From positions 1 through 32,744 of the forward strand of contig CAIMDB010000025.1 in NCBI GenBank assembly GCA_903839675.1: 32,744 bases of DNA, given 5' to 3'. The stretch comes from an uncultured Sphingomonadales bacterium. Its GTDB lineage: Bacteria > Pseudomonadota > Alphaproteobacteria > Sphingomonadales > Sphingomonadaceae. Each line of letters opens with the position of its first letter. The first letter of the stretch is position 1. A program made the translations under genes and the position numbers. Of this stretch, positions 4,890 through 27,664 are shown piece after piece. Below the pieces are notes generated by a model, which did not search any database, was not told the origin of the DNA, and saw only the letters and a program-made list of their open reading frames with translations.

Positions 4890-5813
4890 ATGACCGGCAA
4901 AGCGCTGGCTGTGAAACGTAAAAGTGCGAGCACCATTCCTGCGCTCAACAGCGAGGATGGACTCAACCGCTATTTGGCTGAGATCAAGAAGTTCCCGATT
5001 CTGACCGCAGAAGAGGAATATATGCTCGCCAAGCGGTTTGAGGAGCATCAGGATCCGGAGGCGGCCGCCAAGCTGGTGACGTCGCATCTGCGCCTCGTGG
5101 CGAAAATCGCCATGGGCTATCGCGGCTATGGCCTGCCCGTCAGTGAACTGATCGCGGAAGGCAATATCGGCCTGATACAGGGCGTAAAGAAGTTTGAGGC
5201 AGATCGCGGTTTCCGCGTCGCCACTTACGCCATGTGGTGGATCAAGGCGTCGATCCAGGAATTCATCCTGCGGTCGTGGAGCCTTGTGAAGCTTGGCACG
5301 ACGGCAGCGCAAAAGAAGCTGTTCTTCAACCTGCGCCGGATGAAGAAAAACCTCGAAGCCTATGAGGATGGCGATCTTCGCCCGGAAGACGTGCGCAAAA
5401 TCGCGACCGACCTTGGCGTGACGGAAGACGAAGTCATCAGCATGAACCGCCGTATGCTCGGCGGCGGCGATACCTCGCTCAATGTTTCGCTCAACGAAGA
5501 TGGCGAAGGCCAGTGGCAGGACACGTTGGTCGATGGCGGTCCGTTGCAGGATGAGATCGTGGCCGACGCGGAAGAGCGTATTCAACGACACGCGCTCCTC
5601 ATCGAGGCGATGCAGAATCTGACCGATCGTGAAAAGCAGATCCTGACCGACCGCCGTCTGGTCGATGAACCCCGCACACTGGAAGAATTGAGCCAGGAAT
5701 TTGGCGTCTCCCGCGAACGCGTCCGCCAGATTGAGGTGCGCGCCTTTGAAAAGCTGCAAAAGGCGATGATGCGGATCGCGGGTGAACGGCACCTTCTGCC
5801 CGCAGCGGCCTGA
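4890..5813 (+). CDS. rpoH: RNA polymerase sigma-32 factor RpoH (heat shock)
   Basis: 307 residues, the usual size for an alphaproteobacterial RpoH. Region 2 includes LRLVAKIAMGYRGYG and the -10-recognising block ATYAMWWIKASIQEFI. The RpoH box QKKLFFNLR (141-149) distinguishes it from RpoD. Region 4.2 carries the helix-turn-helix ELSQEFGVSRERVRQIE near the C terminus. It directs transcription of chaperone and protease genes. The ATG chosen has GGGAG seven nt upstream; an in-frame ATG at 4833 overlaps the end of rluD and has no such site. A strong terminator follows 30 nt after the stop, so rluD-rpoH ends there. I see no convincing heat-shock promoter in the 53 nt before it. Confidence 0.95.
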   Translation: MTGKALAVKRKSASTIPALNSEDGLNRYLAEIKKFPILTAEEEYMLAKRFEEHQDPEAAAKLVTSHLRLVAKIAMGYRGYGLPVSELIAEGNIGLIQGVKKFEADRGFRVATYAMWWIKASIQEFILRSWSLVKLGTTAAQKKLFFNLRRMKKNLEAYEDGDLRPEDVRKIATDLGVTEDEVISMNRRMLGGGDTSLNVSLNEDGEGQWQDTLVDGGPLQDEIVADAEERIQRHALLIEAMQNLTDREKQILTDRRLVDEPRTLEELSQEFGVSRERVRQIEVRAFEKLQKAMMRIAGERHLLPAAA

Positions 5814-20959: not shown

Positions 20960-22633
20960 TCACTCGCTTATTCCGACACCTTCGCTTCTTGGGTCGCCCG
21001 CGGCAACCCATCCGTCCTTAGTTTTTTGAGCCGCATTGGCTTTTGATGACATCCGTCCATTGGTCACAACCATCCGGCCATAGGCCGCAAGCTCATTGGA
21101 CTTGGCGGCCAGCGGCGTGTTCGCCTCGACGATGATGGCTTCGCCGCCGAAGAAAATATTGGGTTCGGCAATCGCCTCCTGCGCGCCCAAACCCCAATCG
21201 AGATGCGCGATCAGCGTCTTGGCAACCTGCATGATGATGGTCTTGCCGCCCGCTGCACCGACCGCGAAGATCGGCTTGCCATCCGCATCATAAACGAGGG
21301 TGGGCGACATCGAGGACAAAGGCCGCTTGCCCGGCTGCGGACGGTTGGCGACAGGCGCGCCGTCCTTTGTCGGGGCAAAGGTAAAGTCGGTCAGTTCATT
21401 GTTGAGGACGTAGCCATTGGCGACCAACTGGCTACCAAATGGTCCTTCAACAGTGGACGTCATCGTCGCCACGCCGCCGAACCGGTCAGCCGCGACAAAG
21501 TGCGTCGTGCCGGCGACTTCGCTCGAAATGGCGGCGGTGCGCGGCTCCGCCCCCGGAGGTGTTCCGGCGGCATAGCTGGGCAGAGATGTCGTTTCGGAAA
21601 TGAGCGCGGAGCGGCTGGCGATATACCCCTTGTCGATCAGGCCCGCGACGGGGACCGACACGAAATCAGGGTCACCCAGATATTTCTCCCGGTCGGCATA
21701 AGCCAGCAACATGGCTTCCGCGATCAGATGCCAAGCCTTGGGGTCATCCTTGCCCAGCGCCTTCATGTCGAAACGTTCCAGCATGCCGAGCACCTGAAAC
21801 ACAGTCGTCGCACCGGATGAGGGCGGCCCCATGCCGCAGAGTTTGTAGACACGGTAGGTGGTGCACACCGCCGCACGGTCCTTCGCCTGATAGGAGGAGA
21901 TGTCCTTCAGCGTCATCGGTGCCGCATTCTTGGGCGCATTGCTGACCGCCGCGGCAATCGCGCGCGCATTCTGCCCCTTATAGAAAGCAGACGGCCCCTT
22001 CTTTGCGACAGCACGGAGGAGCTTTGCGAGGTCCGGATTGCGGATTGTATCGCCTGCCTGCTTGGGGCGGCCATCCTGAAAATAGATCGCCTTGGTCGCG
22101 TCCAGCCCGTCCCAGAGCGGAGAGACCTGCTTGATCACACCGGCCAGACGCGGGGTGACGACATAGCCGTCCTCCGCCAACTTGATCGCGGGATCAAAGA
22201 GCTTGGCCCATTTGAGCTTACCCCATTTCTTATGGGCCTTGGCCGCAAGCGCAATGTTGCCTGGCACACCGACCGAATGGCCGCCGAGGAACGCGTCGCG
22301 ATACCCAAGCGGCTTTCCATCTGGCCCCATGAAGCGGTCTTCGCGGGTCGCGGCAGGCGCCGTCTCCCGTCCGTCAATCGTCGCGGGCAAGCCCGTCTTT
22401 GGATCGTTGTAGATGAAGAAGCCACCACCCCCGATGCCGGAGGATTGCGGCTCGACCACCGAGAGCGCCACCATCATGGCGAGCGCGGCATCGGCGGCGC
22501 TCCCGCCTTGCCGCAGCATGGCAATACCCGCTTCTGCCGCGCGCGGATCGGCAGCGGACACCGCCCCCCTTTCGGCGAGGACAGCATTGGGAAGAAGGAG
22601 GAAAATGAAGAAGTTGAGGATGATTTTTTTCAT
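20960..22633 (-). CDS. ggt: Gamma-glutamyltransferase
   Basis: 557 residues. GGT is a periplasmic Ntn-hydrolase that cleaves glutathione and other gamma-glutamyl compounds. A signal peptide (MKKIILNFFIFLLLPNAVLA) should be cut after residue 20. The large-subunit core contains SSGIGGGGFFIY (64-75). Self-cleavage is expected before Thr366 in AGTTHFV, the new N-terminal nucleophile of the small subunit. Downstream blocks SSMSPTLV and GAAGGKTI match the gamma-glutamyl-binding sites. The gene lies 38 nt downstream of pyrD and 48 nt upstream of the acyl-CoA ligase. The first few codons are AT-rich (AAAAAGATTATTTTG), which favours translation start. Confidence 0.93.
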   Translation of the reverse strand: MKKIILNFFIFLLLPNAVLAERGAVSAADPRAAEAGIAMLRQGGSAADAALAMMVALSVVEPQSSGIGGGGFFIYNDPKTGLPATIDGRETAPAATREDRFMGPDGKPLGYRDAFLGGHSVGVPGNIALAAKAHKKWGKLKWAKLFDPAIKLAEDGYVVTPRLAGVIKQVSPLWDGLDATKAIYFQDGRPKQAGDTIRNPDLAKLLRAVAKKGPSAFYKGQNARAIAAAVSNAPKNAAPMTLKDISSYQAKDRAAVCTTYRVYKLCGMGPPSSGATTVFQVLGMLERFDMKALGKDDPKAWHLIAEAMLLAYADREKYLGDPDFVSVPVAGLIDKGYIASRSALISETTSLPSYAAGTPPGAEPRTAAISSEVAGTTHFVAADRFGGVATMTSTVEGPFGSQLVANGYVLNNELTDFTFAPTKDGAPVANRPQPGKRPLSSMSPTLVYDADGKPIFAVGAAGGKTIIMQVAKTLIAHLDWGLGAQEAIAEPNIFFGGEAIIVEANTPLAAKSNELAAYGRMVVTNGRMSSKANAAQKTKDGWVAAGDPRSEGVGISE

Positions 22634-22671: not shown

Positions 22672-23706
22672 CTATCGGACGTCGACGCCCACAGCCTGTG
22701 CAACATTTGTGAAACCATCGCGCACCAGCAGCTCTTCCAGCCCCTTATTGATGCGCCGCGCCAAGCCCGGCCCTTCATAAACGAGCGCCGAATAAATCTG
22801 GATGAGCGACGCCCCGGCGCGGATGCGGGCATAAGCATCTTCGGCGCTGGCAATCCCACCGGCCCCAATCAACGGCAGCGCGCCGCCCGTTGCCTTTGCA
22901 AAATCGCGCATCCGTTGCTGGGCGAGATCCCGCAAAGGTGCGCCGGAAAGGCCGCCACCTTCCGCCGCATGGCCCGACGCTAAATCTGGCCGCGAAATCG
23001 TTGTGTTCGAAACGATCAGCCCGTCGACCATGCCGACCGAGAGGCGGGCAATTGCATCGATGTCGGCGGGCTCCAGATCAGGCGCGACCTTCAGGAAAAC
23101 CGGCGGGCCATTTGCCGGTCGCGCATCGCGTACGGCGCAGAGCAACTCGGTCAGGGCGGCTTCGTCCTGCAAGGCACGCAAGCCCGGGGTGTTGGGCGAG
23201 CTGATATTGACGGTCAGGTAGGAGGCAACCGGCGCCATCTGCCGCACGCCCGTCGCGTAATCGGCGATGCGATCCACGGCATCTTTGTTCGCTCCAATGT
23301 TGACGCCAATGAGGCCCCGCCCGAGCGCAGCCTGCACGCGCGGCAAGGCCGCCGCCTGCCCGCCATTGTTGAAGCCCATACGATTGATGACCGCCTTGTC
23401 CTCAACCAGCCGAAACAGGCGCGGCTGCGGATTGCCCGCCTGCGGCAGCGGCGTCAGCGTGCCGACTTCGACAAAGCCGAAACCGGTCCCCAGCATTTCA
23501 ACCGCAACCTCGGCATCCTTGTCATAGCCTGCGGCCAAACCGACCGGATTGGGAAACTGCAACCCGACCACCTGCGAGGACAGGATGGCACGCGTCAAAG
23601 GCGGACGATGGGCCCCGAACAGCTTAAGGGCAGCAAGGCTAAGGCGGTGGGCGCGTTCGGCATCAAAAGCGAAAACGAACGGACGGACGAAAGGATAAAG
23701 CGACAT
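22672..23706 (-). CDS. pyrD: Dihydroorotate dehydrogenase (quinone), class 2
   Basis: 344 residues, the usual length. PyrD oxidises dihydroorotate to orotate in pyrimidine synthesis and passes electrons to quinone at the inner membrane. An amphipathic N terminus (MSLYPFVRPFVFAFDAERAHRLS) gives membrane contact. FMN and substrate motifs: GLAAGYDKDAE, VGTLTPLPQAGNPQPRLFR, NRMGFNN, NISSPNTPGLR with the class 2 catalytic Ser, KVAPDL and GGI..A near the C terminus. The ATG at 23706 gives the family N terminus; a longer in-frame start at 23787 would add 27 unrelated residues. There is no strong ribosome site. A promoter candidate lies about 125 nt upstream. Confidence 0.94.
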   Translation of the reverse strand: MSLYPFVRPFVFAFDAERAHRLSLAALKLFGAHRPPLTRAILSSQVVGLQFPNPVGLAAGYDKDAEVAVEMLGTGFGFVEVGTLTPLPQAGNPQPRLFRLVEDKAVINRMGFNNGGQAAALPRVQAALGRGLIGVNIGANKDAVDRIADYATGVRQMAPVASYLTVNISSPNTPGLRALQDEAALTELLCAVRDARPANGPPVFLKVAPDLEPADIDAIARLSVGMVDGLIVSNTTISRPDLASGHAAEGGGLSGAPLRDLAQQRMRDFAKATGGALPLIGAGGIASAEDAYARIRAGASLIQIYSALVYEGPGLARRINKGLEELLVRDGFTNVAQAVGVDVR

Positions 23707-23828: not shown

Positions 23829-23857
23829 ATTGTCGGATTATCACGCAAAAATGTCGA
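23829..23857 (-). promoter_or_regulatory. Candidate sigma-70 promoter of the pyrD operon
   Basis: On the minus strand TCGACA (23857-23852, 5 of 6 to TTGACA) and GACAAT (23834-23829, 4 of 6 to TATAAT) are 17 bp apart. Transcription would start near 23822 and give a leader of about 115 nt containing the 18-bp palindrome. TGTCG(G)ATT direct repeats at 23831, 23852 and 23871 overlap it. Confidence 0.4.
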
Positions 23858-23904
23858 TTTTTTTCAATTTTGTCGATTTCCTCCAATTCGGCATCATTGC
23901 CTAG
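23851..23904 (+). CDS. Possible Phe-rich leader peptide (17 codons)
   Basis: ATG at 23851 to TAG at 23902 encodes MSIFFNFVDFLQFGIIA, with Phe at positions 4, 5, 7, 10 and 13. It precedes a UUCG-capped intrinsic terminator whose hairpin competes with an upstream pairing. This is the architecture of amino-acid attenuation leaders such as that of E. coli pheST. Against it: the stretch is simply T-rich, which favours Phe codons by chance, the ribosome site is weak (GGA 13 nt upstream), and the best promoter I find (TTTCCA-N18-GTTAAT, 23792-23821) is poor. The downstream genes are regulators, not Phe enzymes. Confidence 0.3.
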   Translation: MSIFFNFVDFLQFGIIA

Positions 23905-23989
23905 GCGTATCAGGACGTTGCGACCCGAAGGACTCCTTCTTGAGGATCCTTTATTCAACTTCATCGGCCGATGCCTTCGGGTGTCGGCC
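23883..23989 (+). promoter_or_regulatory. Candidate attenuator: competing pairings before the AraC pair
   Basis: Segment A (CC-aa-TTCGG, 23883-23891, overlapping the last Phe codon of the leader frame) can pair with segment B (ACCCGAAGG, 23923-23931). B is also perfectly complementary over 9 bp to segment C (CCTTCGGGT, 23974-23982). C lies in the terminator hairpin 23966-23989, so B:C pairing would abolish the terminator. A:B, B:C and the terminator are therefore mutually exclusive in the classic attenuation order. Alternatively a small RNA starts near 23904 (TTGTCG-N16-CATCAT, 23870-23897) and ends at the terminator. It exposes CUCCUU, complementary to Shine-Dalgarno sites. Confidence 0.4.
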
Positions 23990-23997
23990 TTTTTTTT
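23966..23997 (+). terminator. Intrinsic terminator with UUCG tetraloop
   Basis: GGCCGATGCC (23966-23975) pairs with GGGTGTCGGCC (stem bases 23980-23989) over ten pairs, two of them G-U. The loop is TTCG closed by C-G, an exceptionally stable tetraloop, and eight T follow directly (23990-23997). No plus-strand protein gene ends upstream, since pyrD runs the other way. It must therefore end a leader or small RNA. It lies 86 nt before the first AraC-type gene. Confidence 0.88.
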
Positions 23998-24083
23998 AAG
24001 CTTCGTTGCGCTATCGTGCGGACGATCGCTTTTGGATCCTGTTTTGTTTGCGTTGCGCGTTTCGTGAAACGGGGTCCATCTGC

Positions 24084-24923
24084 TTGCTCAATCTGGTCTA
24101 CGCGGCGCCCTCTCCGGCCTTGGCGGACTATATTTCCGCCTTCTACCTGTTCGACACCGATGAGCCGAGCTTCTCGGACATTGAGCGCGCGGACATTGCC
24201 CAGTTGCGCTTCAGCCTCAGCGGCAGTGGGGACATCAGTTTTGGGCCCAATGATACGCAGCCGTTTTCAGCGGTCACGCTCATTGGGCCGCGCATGAAGG
24301 CATCGACATTGCGGGTGACGGGACCGGCCATCTGCTTTGGCATGGGGTTGCTCCCGGCCGGTTGGTGCGCCCTGACAGGGCTTCCGGCCAACCAATATGC
24401 CAACCGGGTTGTCAATGCGCAGGACCGTATCAACGGCGATGTCATCACGCTGAGAGAGGCTATGGCGGCCTCGGGCTGCTTTGAGGACATGGTGGCCGCA
24501 AGCGAACGCTTTGTCGCAGAGGTCCTGGCAAAGGCGGAAACACCACCTTTCCGCCTGATCCGCGCCGTCGATGGCTGGCTGGAAGCCAATATGGACCCGG
24601 ACATTGGGGACCTCGCGGAGAAAACCGGCCTGTCCGCGGCACAGCTTCAGCGGCAGCTCAAATCTGTTTATGGCGCCAGCCCGAAACTACTCGCCCGCAA
24701 GTACCGCGCCCTAAAAACGGCGGTCCGCATCGCCAATGGTGACGGGGTCTGGCAGGACTATGTGGGGGACACCTATTATGATCAGTCGCACTGCATCCGC
24801 GAGATCAAGGCCTTCACCGGCGTCACACCGGAAGCCATCCGCAAAACGCCGCGATTAACGAAGGCCACGTTTGAGCGGCATAAACTCAAGGGCAAGATTT
24901 CGACGCTGGCCACTGAAATCTGA
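24084..24923 (+). CDS. AraC-type transcriptional regulator, first of a tandem pair
   Basis: 279 residues. The N-terminal half (about 1-150) is a sensor domain without recognised family. The C-terminal half has the double helix-turn-helix pattern of AraC proteins: DPDIGDLAEKTGLSAAQLQRQLKSVYGASPKLLARKYR and YYDQSHCIREIKAFTGVTPEAIRK. The start is uncertain. A TTG at 24084, with GGGG 9 nt upstream, gives an N terminus that aligns with the paralogous next gene; the open frame extends upstream to 24006 but without similarity. Its stop overlaps the ATG of the second regulator by one base (TGATG). The leader carries a terminator/antiterminator arrangement. The target genes and ligand are unknown. Confidence 0.8.
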   Translation: MLNLVYAAPSPALADYISAFYLFDTDEPSFSDIERADIAQLRFSLSGSGDISFGPNDTQPFSAVTLIGPRMKASTLRVTGPAICFGMGLLPAGWCALTGLPANQYANRVVNAQDRINGDVITLREAMAASGCFEDMVAASERFVAEVLAKAETPPFRLIRAVDGWLEANMDPDIGDLAEKTGLSAAQLQRQLKSVYGASPKLLARKYRALKTAVRIANGDGVWQDYVGDTYYDQSHCIREIKAFTGVTPEAIRKTPRLTKATFERHKLKGKISTLATEI

Positions 24924-25759
24924 TGGAGTGGCAGTTCGCCTCTCCCGCGCCCGCACTCGCCCCGTTCCTTGGCTCCTATTACCTCGCCACGACCCACCAT
25001 CTGACCGTGGATGACCTGCAACGGGCAGACACCGGGCACCTGCACTTCTTCTTGGAAGGCAGCGGCTATAAGGACTTTCCCGGCATCCGCCGCCAGGCCA
25101 ATCTCGTGAGCCTTAGCGGCCCTTCCTCGCTCTATCAGGGCTATGCGCTGAACGGCCCGGCCCGCCTGTTCGGCATCAGCCTGTTGCCGCGCGCTTGGGA
25201 CGGCATGGTCCCCTGCTCTGGCGATAGCCTGACCGATCGGGGGTGCAATGCCGTCGAACTCTTCGGTCCATCCGTGATCGACCTGCATGACAAGCTTCGC
25301 GGTTGTGAAACACTGGCAGAGATGGCGCCCATGGCCGATGCCTTCTTTCAAACACGCCGCCCAAGCATCTCCGAGAAGCACGACCGCGTCATCGAGGGCA
25401 TCCGGGCTTGGTTGACAGAGGCATTGGCGCCGGACCTTGCCGATCTGCAGGATCGCTTTGACCTGTCTGACCGGCAGCTTGCACGAATCGCCAATCGCTA
25501 TTGGGGCGCGCCGCCCAAGTCCCTCGCGCGGAAATATACAGCGCTGCGCACAGCCTCGCTGATCATCGCGCAGGACGGTGCCACTCCGAACGAGGCGCTG
25601 CGCCATTATGCTGACCAATCGCACCTCATCCGCGAGGTCAAGCGCGTCACCGGGCAGACACCCCGACAGCTGCGAACACAGGCCAGCCCAATCCTGCGGA
25701 CGGCGCTGCACCCTGCCAATTTGTGGGAATTACAGGACCGGACTTGTAATTCAGACTAA
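24923..25759 (+). CDS. AraC-type transcriptional regulator, second of a tandem pair
   Basis: 278 residues. It is a clear paralogue of the preceding gene along its full length: PALAPFLGSYYLA against PALADYISAFYLF, GISLLPRAW against GMGLLPAGW, PKSLARKYTALRTA against PKLLARKYRALKTA, and DQSHLIREVKRVTGQTPRQLR against DQSHCIREIKAFTGVTPEAIR. The latter is the second recognition region of the AraC domain. The ATG overlaps the upstream stop by one base, so equal synthesis and hetero-oligomer formation are plausible. The end of the gene contains the predicted rrf2/suf promoter. The function is unknown. Confidence 0.85.
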   Translation: MEWQFASPAPALAPFLGSYYLATTHHLTVDDLQRADTGHLHFFLEGSGYKDFPGIRRQANLVSLSGPSSLYQGYALNGPARLFGISLLPRAWDGMVPCSGDSLTDRGCNAVELFGPSVIDLHDKLRGCETLAEMAPMADAFFQTRRPSISEKHDRVIEGIRAWLTEALAPDLADLQDRFDLSDRQLARIANRYWGAPPKSLARKYTALRTASLIIAQDGATPNEALRHYADQSHLIREVKRVTGQTPRQLRTQASPILRTALHPANLWELQDRTCNSD

Positions 25760-25778: not shown

Positions 25779-26185
25779 ATGCGCCTTTCGAGTCTTGCCG
25801 ATTATGCGGTTGTCATGATGTCCGCCTGCGCCCGCCATTGCGGGGGCACGCGCACGAATGCCGGTCAACTTGCTGAAGAAACAGGGATTCCTCTGCCCAC
25901 TGTGCAAAAGCTGGTGAGCAAATTGTCGTCTGCCGGACTGCTGCGATCGGTGCGAGGCGCCGGCGGCGGGTTCAAGCTCGCGCGCCCGGCGGCCGCCATT
26001 AGCGTTGCCGAAATCGTCGAAGCCATTGAAGGACCCATCGCCATGACCGCCTGTGTTGACCATGACCGGCAGGAATGCGCGTTGGAAAAAGACTGCGCCG
26101 TCCGCCCGCACTGGCAGGTGATCAATGCGACTGTCCGCGACGCACTGGCGGGTGTTCCGCTGACCCGCCTTGTGGAGGCCCGGGC

Positions 26186-26189
<4 letters not shown>
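25779..26189 (+). CDS. Rrf2-family regulator of the SUF operon (IscR-like)
   Basis: 136 residues. A winged helix-turn-helix begins at [14 protein letters not shown], with recognition region [36 protein letters not shown] wing helix follows, then three cysteines (92, 100, 106) in [15 protein letters not shown]. These fit the Fe-S ligands of Rrf2 proteins; the spacing is 8 and 6, where E. coli IscR has 6 and 6. It probably senses Fe-S cluster status and represses the suf genes when clusters are plentiful. The ATG at 25779 gives the full family N terminus. Its stop overlaps the sufB start (ATGA), so regulator and targets are one operon. Confidence 0.9.

Positions 26190-27664
<1,475 letters not shown>

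Follow-up and report, generated by a model that had tools for sequence, protein, structure and literature searches.

A probable small RNA gene beside pyrD, with copies across the Sphingomonadaceae

We analysed the spacer between pyrD and a tandem pair of AraC-type regulator genes in a 32,744-nucleotide stretch of DNA (the window) from an uncultured Sphingomonadales bacterium. From the fold of the spacer and its comparison with related genomes we conclude, with a probability of about 0.8, that the spacer holds a gene for a stand-alone small RNA, with a terminator and a probable promoter of its own. A preliminary description had favored a phenylalanine attenuator of the AraC pair and offered a stand-alone RNA of ∼90 nt as the alternative; it is the alternative that found support, with the length now put at ∼80 nt and with conservation across the family. 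In kind the locus is an unexceptional small RNA gene, and within the limits of our searches its family is new. Its parts are as follows.

23870-23887, plus strand: conserved block TTGTCGATTTCCTCCAAT, a probable promoter or operator; its form in the family is TTGTCGnTTnCATACAAT, and it lies 50 bases upstream of the RNA core
23908-23913, plus strand: likely -10 element TATCAG, placed from the -12/-11 position, where TA is the commonest pair in the 54 named loci defined below
23918-23997, plus strand: small RNA gene, ∼80 nt (covariance models R1 and R2, fold and conservation; start placed to within a few bases)
23918-23926, plus strand: mostly unpaired 5′ end UUGCGACCC, the proposed seed (GCGACCC conservation, low pairing probabilities)
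23927-23952, plus strand: hairpin 1 (predicted fold, pairing counts in the alignment)
23966-23997, plus strand: intrinsic terminator with 8 U (stem-loop 23966-23989, 10 pairs, UUCG loop)

The predicted fold of the RNA (23918-23997) had an energy of −30.2 kcal/mol (z −3.91), and none of 200 shuffled sequences folded as low. Copies in the family usually fold with the 5′ end unpaired, followed by a single hairpin, a linker and then the terminator; some single sequences differ in the 5′ part. Terminator-like sites as such were not in excess between positions 22000 and 27000 (4 observed vs 5.3 in shuffles); the only one of the four to combine a 10-pair stem with a tail of eight T was the site at 23966-23997. 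The UUCG-capped terminator followed by eight T, pointed out in the preliminary description, is thus as described, with the T run ending at 23997.

Conservation is strongest at the 5′ end. In A7, an alignment of 101 copies (99 distinct rows, duplicates retained), the heptamer GCGACCC was present in 101 of 101, a count made after removal of one match that had no GCGACCC (L060); among the copies not selected by pattern it was present in 51 of 51. The U-run after the terminator stem was seen in 100 of the 101. The preliminary description had drawn attention to an anti-Shine-Dalgarno CUCCUU (23933-23938), which turned out to lie mostly within a hairpin stem; invariance is seen instead at the 5′ GCGACCC.

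On the stored structure 93.6% of the A7 cells were paired, vs 73.5% in shuffles, and 308 cells were changed on both sides, vs 92.1; neither value was reached in 500 shuffles, and sliding the partners by one to three columns gave at most 63.3% paired cells and 89 double changes. As A7 was fitted to the structure, these pairing counts are biased in the structure's favor. Double changes fell mainly in the terminator (293 of 308), where 98% of cells were paired and all 10 pairs showed changes on both sides. The covariation that had been proposed as a check on the terminator is therefore present, while the same would be expected from any conserved terminator. The other 15 double changes were in hairpin 1, a 9-pair helix with 88% of cells paired, both-side changes in five pairs, and one pair usually open.

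When 60 relatives were searched at the DNA level, nine genomes had matches, among them 6 of the 13 from the same genus. Three matches came from other genera: G033 carries this element, and the remaining two, once read, proved to be something else. Within the genus alignments TGCGACCCGAAGG was invariant and the terminator loop varied. A first covariance model, R1, was built from the seven sequences of this comparison and matched 169 of 298 family genomes at an E-value of 0.01; GCGACCC was present in 27 of the 28 R1 matches that were aligned. A pattern scan of named genomes gave at least 80 loci, at least 54 of them Sphingomonadales copies (the named loci). Excluded were 26 of the 80, namely 25 not labelled Sphingomonadales and one from an Alphaproteobacteria MAG (L117); read as sequences, these appeared to be chance matches, mostly coding.

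The second model, R2, was built from 80 sequences and used at an E-value of 0.001 or better. It matched 182 of 298 family genomes, representing 65 of 96 genera, and recovered two genomes of the genus that the DNA search had missed (G003 and G010); at this threshold no match was found in 116 of the 298, another genome of the genus (G007) included. In the order sample 76 of 196 genomes were matched, those listed all belonging to the same family. In the class sample 7 of 385 were matched, four within the family and three outside it; the latter were weak (33-35 bits) and lacked GCGACCC, and one of them carried UUUCCUCCCU, a 10-mer of the suhB family considered below. L060, which turned out to be suhB, had been in an early model set and was left out of later models. 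L105, L135, L147 and L152 were never in the models, L069 and L095 were omitted as duplicates, and L239-L241 were left out of A7. A match at window position 5795 (18.3 bits) fell below the E limit of the later model search.

Up to four R2 matches were observed per genome. The RNA core was present in 15 of 15 regions fetched for further matches. Four of the further copies were read: the upstream block was recognisable in L246, L247 and L257, and L254 was without it. G003 has the RNA gene twice in tandem between pyrD and AraC (L061, 1280-1590), and both units come with a block and a terminator. Searches of a plasmid collection yielded two chance-level matches of ∼25 bases for the window's own copy (E 0.4) and, for L098, one weak match to a Novosphingobium record (E 0.4).

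The block upstream of the RNA accompanies it through the family. In 53 of the 54 named loci listed, the best match to TTGTCGnTTnCATACAAT was located at −50/−51 from the RNA core and agreed in 10-16 of 16 letters, the exception being L132, an additional copy from Tsuneonella troitsensis. The exact block GTCGNTTNCATACAAT was found 24 times, spread over 21 of the 119 family genomes searched, and the reversed control gave no match. Seventeen of the 24 were at listed model matches and three more were read as RNA copies (L202, L209 and L212); of the remainder, L205 is not a copy of the RNA and three others were not read. Since the exact block is found mostly at RNA copies, it belongs with the RNA gene. 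A sigma-70 scan of this region predicted minus-strand promoters only and none on the plus strand.

In the genus of the window a direct repeat TGTCGATTT is present at 23852-23860 and 23871-23879, with a 19-base step, and only the downstream copy (23871) aligns with the block of other genera. The idea that AraC is a necessary regulator, acting through TGTCG repeats, is for this reason not supported; the block is also kept in nine Novosphingobium loci with no AraC match in the fetched flank, which counts against it as well. As a separate observation, the region upstream of suhB (L193 and 14 suhB loci of the family) has TTTCGCACTTGCACAAA at a place resembling that of the TGTCGCTTGCATACAAT block, with a GTTGCA...TGCAAC palindrome further up. 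To judge from these motifs, a common regulator of both small RNAs is possible.

The attenuator proposed earlier for this spacer makes use of three further features.

23851-23904, plus strand: ATG frame of 17 codons, five of them Phe, reading MSIFFNFVDFLQFGIIA and then a stop
23923-23931, plus strand: segment B, ACCCGAAGG
23974-23982, plus strand: segment C, CCTTCGGGT

Proteobacterial amino-acid attenuators have a short leader frame followed by a terminator, and the likeness of the window element to them lies in this order. In the proposed scheme a ribosome stalled in the 17-codon frame would leave B free to pair with C, thereby breaking the terminator and allowing transcription of AraC. The frame with its five Phe codons, the perfect B:C complementarity over 9 nt and the terminator are all present in the window. 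Of the claim that three segments pair in a mutually exclusive manner, the B:C part with its nine pairs stood; the A:B part did not stand as nine consecutive pairs, as A (23883-23891) can pair with B only through CC and UUCGG, seven pairs in all, interrupted by a bulge of two bases. Neither pairing formed in the minimum-energy fold of 23830-24010, in which B was partly in the hairpin at 23927-23952 and C was kept within the terminator. In our reading, the B:C match is largely to be expected from a C(UUCG)G terminator loop opposite a CCGAAG core.

The preliminary description itself made this scheme depend on conservation of the leader frame and of B:C complementarity in relatives; we examined both, and neither result supported the scheme. 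All nine B:C pairs could be formed in 3 of the 101 aligned copies, eight in one copy and seven or fewer in 97. The sole relatives to retain the Phe codons are four close ones: G005 (17 codons, five Phe), G002 (a later stop, 30 codons, five Phe), G009 (five Phe and no stop within 50 codons) and G012 (19 codons, four Phe). G006 has no ATG at the position of the leader frame, and G033 keeps the ATG with no Phe among the first 17 codons. The first 13 codons showed three changes (one in G009, two in G012) and all three alter the amino acid, which, few as these changes are, suggests that it is the DNA of the leader that is conserved and not an encoded peptide. At the corresponding place none of the 54 named loci had an ATG frame with at least four Phe in the first 17 codons: 21 had no ATG frame there, and in the best frame of the other 33 we counted no Phe in 13 loci, one in 15, two in four and three in one. 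The frame also overlaps the promoter-like block, which lies inside it and thus puts the frame upstream of the likely start site. Even with AraC as the next gene in many loci (see below), we rejected Phe attenuation, the leader frame and B:C not being conserved, and consider it extremely improbable. Unlike amino-acid attenuators, whose layout it resembles, the window element has no conserved leader frame or alternative pairing and is tied to no biosynthetic gene and no constant downstream gene. The terminator of a small RNA of this type can pass for an attenuator, as it did in the first reading.

The small RNA gene that we favor has the following neighbors.

22672-23706, minus strand: pyrD, divergent neighbor (NCBIfam dihydroorotate dehydrogenase (quinone), over the cut-off)
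24084-24923, plus strand: AraC-type regulator 1 (DUF6597 and HTH_18 by Pfam on the longer frame 24006-24923; TTG start proposed from homologues)
24923-25759, plus strand: AraC-type regulator 2 (HTH_18 by Pfam; DUF6597 below its cut-off)
25779-26189, plus strand: Rrf2-type suf regulator (NCBIfam TIGR02944, over the cut-off)
26186-27664, plus strand: sufB (NCBIfam SufB, over the cut-off)

The tandem AraC pair had been recognised before, and Pfam confirmed both genes as AraC-type. Their presence leads to another explanation, in which the RNA would mainly be the stopped front of an araC transcript, a terminated 5′ leader with read-through regulated by some other signal. In 27 of 45 named loci an AraC gene starts no more than 500 bases downstream of the RNA, and in G033, too, the RNA precedes an AraC/DUF6597-like gene, as such a leader should. 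The RNA is retained, however, in the 18 loci of the 45 that have no AraC within that distance. Rrf2 or sufB is downstream in 12 of these 18; an AraC match is seen ∼2 kb further on in three of them (L127, L146 and L150), and in the rest no AraC match was found in the fetched flank. Two full tandem units ahead of AraC in G003 and the copies of the RNA at other genomic sites also argue against a leader, which we regard as distinctly unlikely. It is pyrD, on the other side, that is found as the divergent neighbor in 45 of the 52 loci whose upstream sequence is long enough to tell. A palindrome, CGTTTCGTGAAACG (24058-24071), immediately precedes the likely TTG start of the first AraC gene and is also present in G005 and G002; it is possibly an operator.

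With gathering cut-offs applied, Rfam 15 matched nothing in the window; in 13 other loci it recognised tRNAs alone. The nearest family was suhB/alpha-r8 (RF00519), with 30.5 bits vs a gathering cut-off of 41 (E 1.6e-4), which raises the question of whether the RNA is a divergent member of that family. Besides being the best Rfam match, suhB/alpha-r8 likewise consists of a hairpin, an ACUU-containing linker and a terminator, and the suhB upstream region contains a loosely similar TCGC..TTGCA..ACAA stretch. Like suhB, MmgR and SisA-D of RF00519, the RNA of the window is short, ends in an intrinsic terminator, is encoded by a separate gene and occurs in multiple copies in the genomes of some species. 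Against membership are the score below the cut-off and a separate suhB in the same genome, with 47.2 bits. The conserved cores differ as well: the suhB block GCCTTTCAGGCATCCTCTCC, found in 15 of 15 rows (14 fetched family loci and the genome's own copy), is absent from the window RNA. According to the passages on this family in PMC12559287, suhB/alpha-r8 RNAs have a weak hairpin and then an internal 10-mer, UUUCCUCCCU, that is single-stranded, and usually neighbor an N-formyl glutamate amidohydrolase gene. We found UUUCCUCCCU in none of the 101 aligned copies, a strict test given that the genome's own suhB locus also lacks the exact 10-mer. The conserved pairing part is thus the 5′ GCGACCC in the window RNA and internal in the suhB type (UUUCCUCCCU, or AUCCUCUCC in the suhB of this family), and the neighbor is pyrD, here as in most of the loci counted above. 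Many copies of the window RNA share the promoter-like block, in contrast to SisA-D, for which section 7 of PMC12559287 gives no common promoter motif. On the sub-threshold score, the separate suhB and the different core we rejected membership as very improbable.

The RNA of the window, taken as a separate family, may be compared, in layout only, with the siblings OmrA and OmrB, which share a 5′ seed in the account given in section 12 of PMC12559287; the likeness consists in tandem or multiple copies and in a conserved 5′ end as the proposed pairing site. Published studies of small RNAs include those of SuhB in Sphingopyxis granuli (PMC6563040), of Zymomonas small RNAs (PMC7064620, PMC6970203) and of SisA-D and CrfA (PMC12559287). 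By title or abstract we found no description of the window RNA, which may still have an entry in a transcriptome table.

Most likely, on the evidence of conservation and fold, the gene encodes a trans-acting small RNA pairing via its 5′ end: this end is invariant and mostly unpaired, which suggests base pairing with targets. Transcription would start near 23918, perhaps assisted by an activator bound around −42, and the polymerase would stop near 23997, giving an RNA of ∼80 nt. Hfq perhaps holds this RNA at its 3′ end, while UUGCGACCC at the 5′ end would pair with mRNAs. The downstream AraC genes would then be separate genes that may receive some read-through. The presence of the RNA in 65 of the 96 sampled genera, with an unvarying 5′ end, suggests that it should control something common to the family. 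As Rfam 15 did not see the RNA at its cut-offs, either in the window or in the 13 other loci, annotation that depends on Rfam will probably overlook it. Targets and the regulator can be sought directly with the covariance model, the seed and the promoter block.

Searches for complements of the seed gave no general enrichment. The heptamer GGGTCGC was found 11 times within −25/+15 of the candidate starts of 1209 ORFs in the fetched loci, vs 4 to 36 times for 40 shuffled motifs, and the 10-mer TTCGGGTCGC had 16 matches in the window's own genome vs 21 in the reversed control. Among the 15 matches besides the RNA gene two were outside sense ORFs of at least 80 aa, and one of these two is in the 3′ UTR of eipA, the gene for envelope integrity protein A.

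L261, 1488-1557 (contig C6 of the same genome, ∼12327): eipA 3′ UTR block UUCGGGUCGCACCAAACU with terminator

In this genome UUCGGGUCGCACCAAACU precedes the terminator of eipA, which is convergent with pyrC, and it is the exact 11-nt antisense of the seed end UGCGACCCGAA. A search for the block in the genus matched 7 of 13 genomes; the two weakest matches were read and are unrelated, and in all five genomes with a real match the block is identical. It scored 26.3 bits against the Rfam family BjrC68, whose cut-off is 39. The 16-nt 5′ end of the RNA was predicted to pair with the block at −22.3 kcal/mol, a value reached in 1 of 1000 shuffles; for the whole RNA 19 of 500 shuffles were as low. By our estimate, an 11-base complement is expected by chance about once per genome; given this and the lack of enrichment of the 10-mer, we treat the eipA complement as a lead only. 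It is conceivable, though we hold it to be unlikely, that a multicopy small RNA family of the Sphingomonadaceae, with its widely shared promoter block and invariant seed, is countered by another conserved RNA, namely the eipA 3′ UTR. Were it so, the eipA 3′ UTR would be either a target or a 3′-UTR-derived sponge, and would tie the RNA to envelope upkeep.
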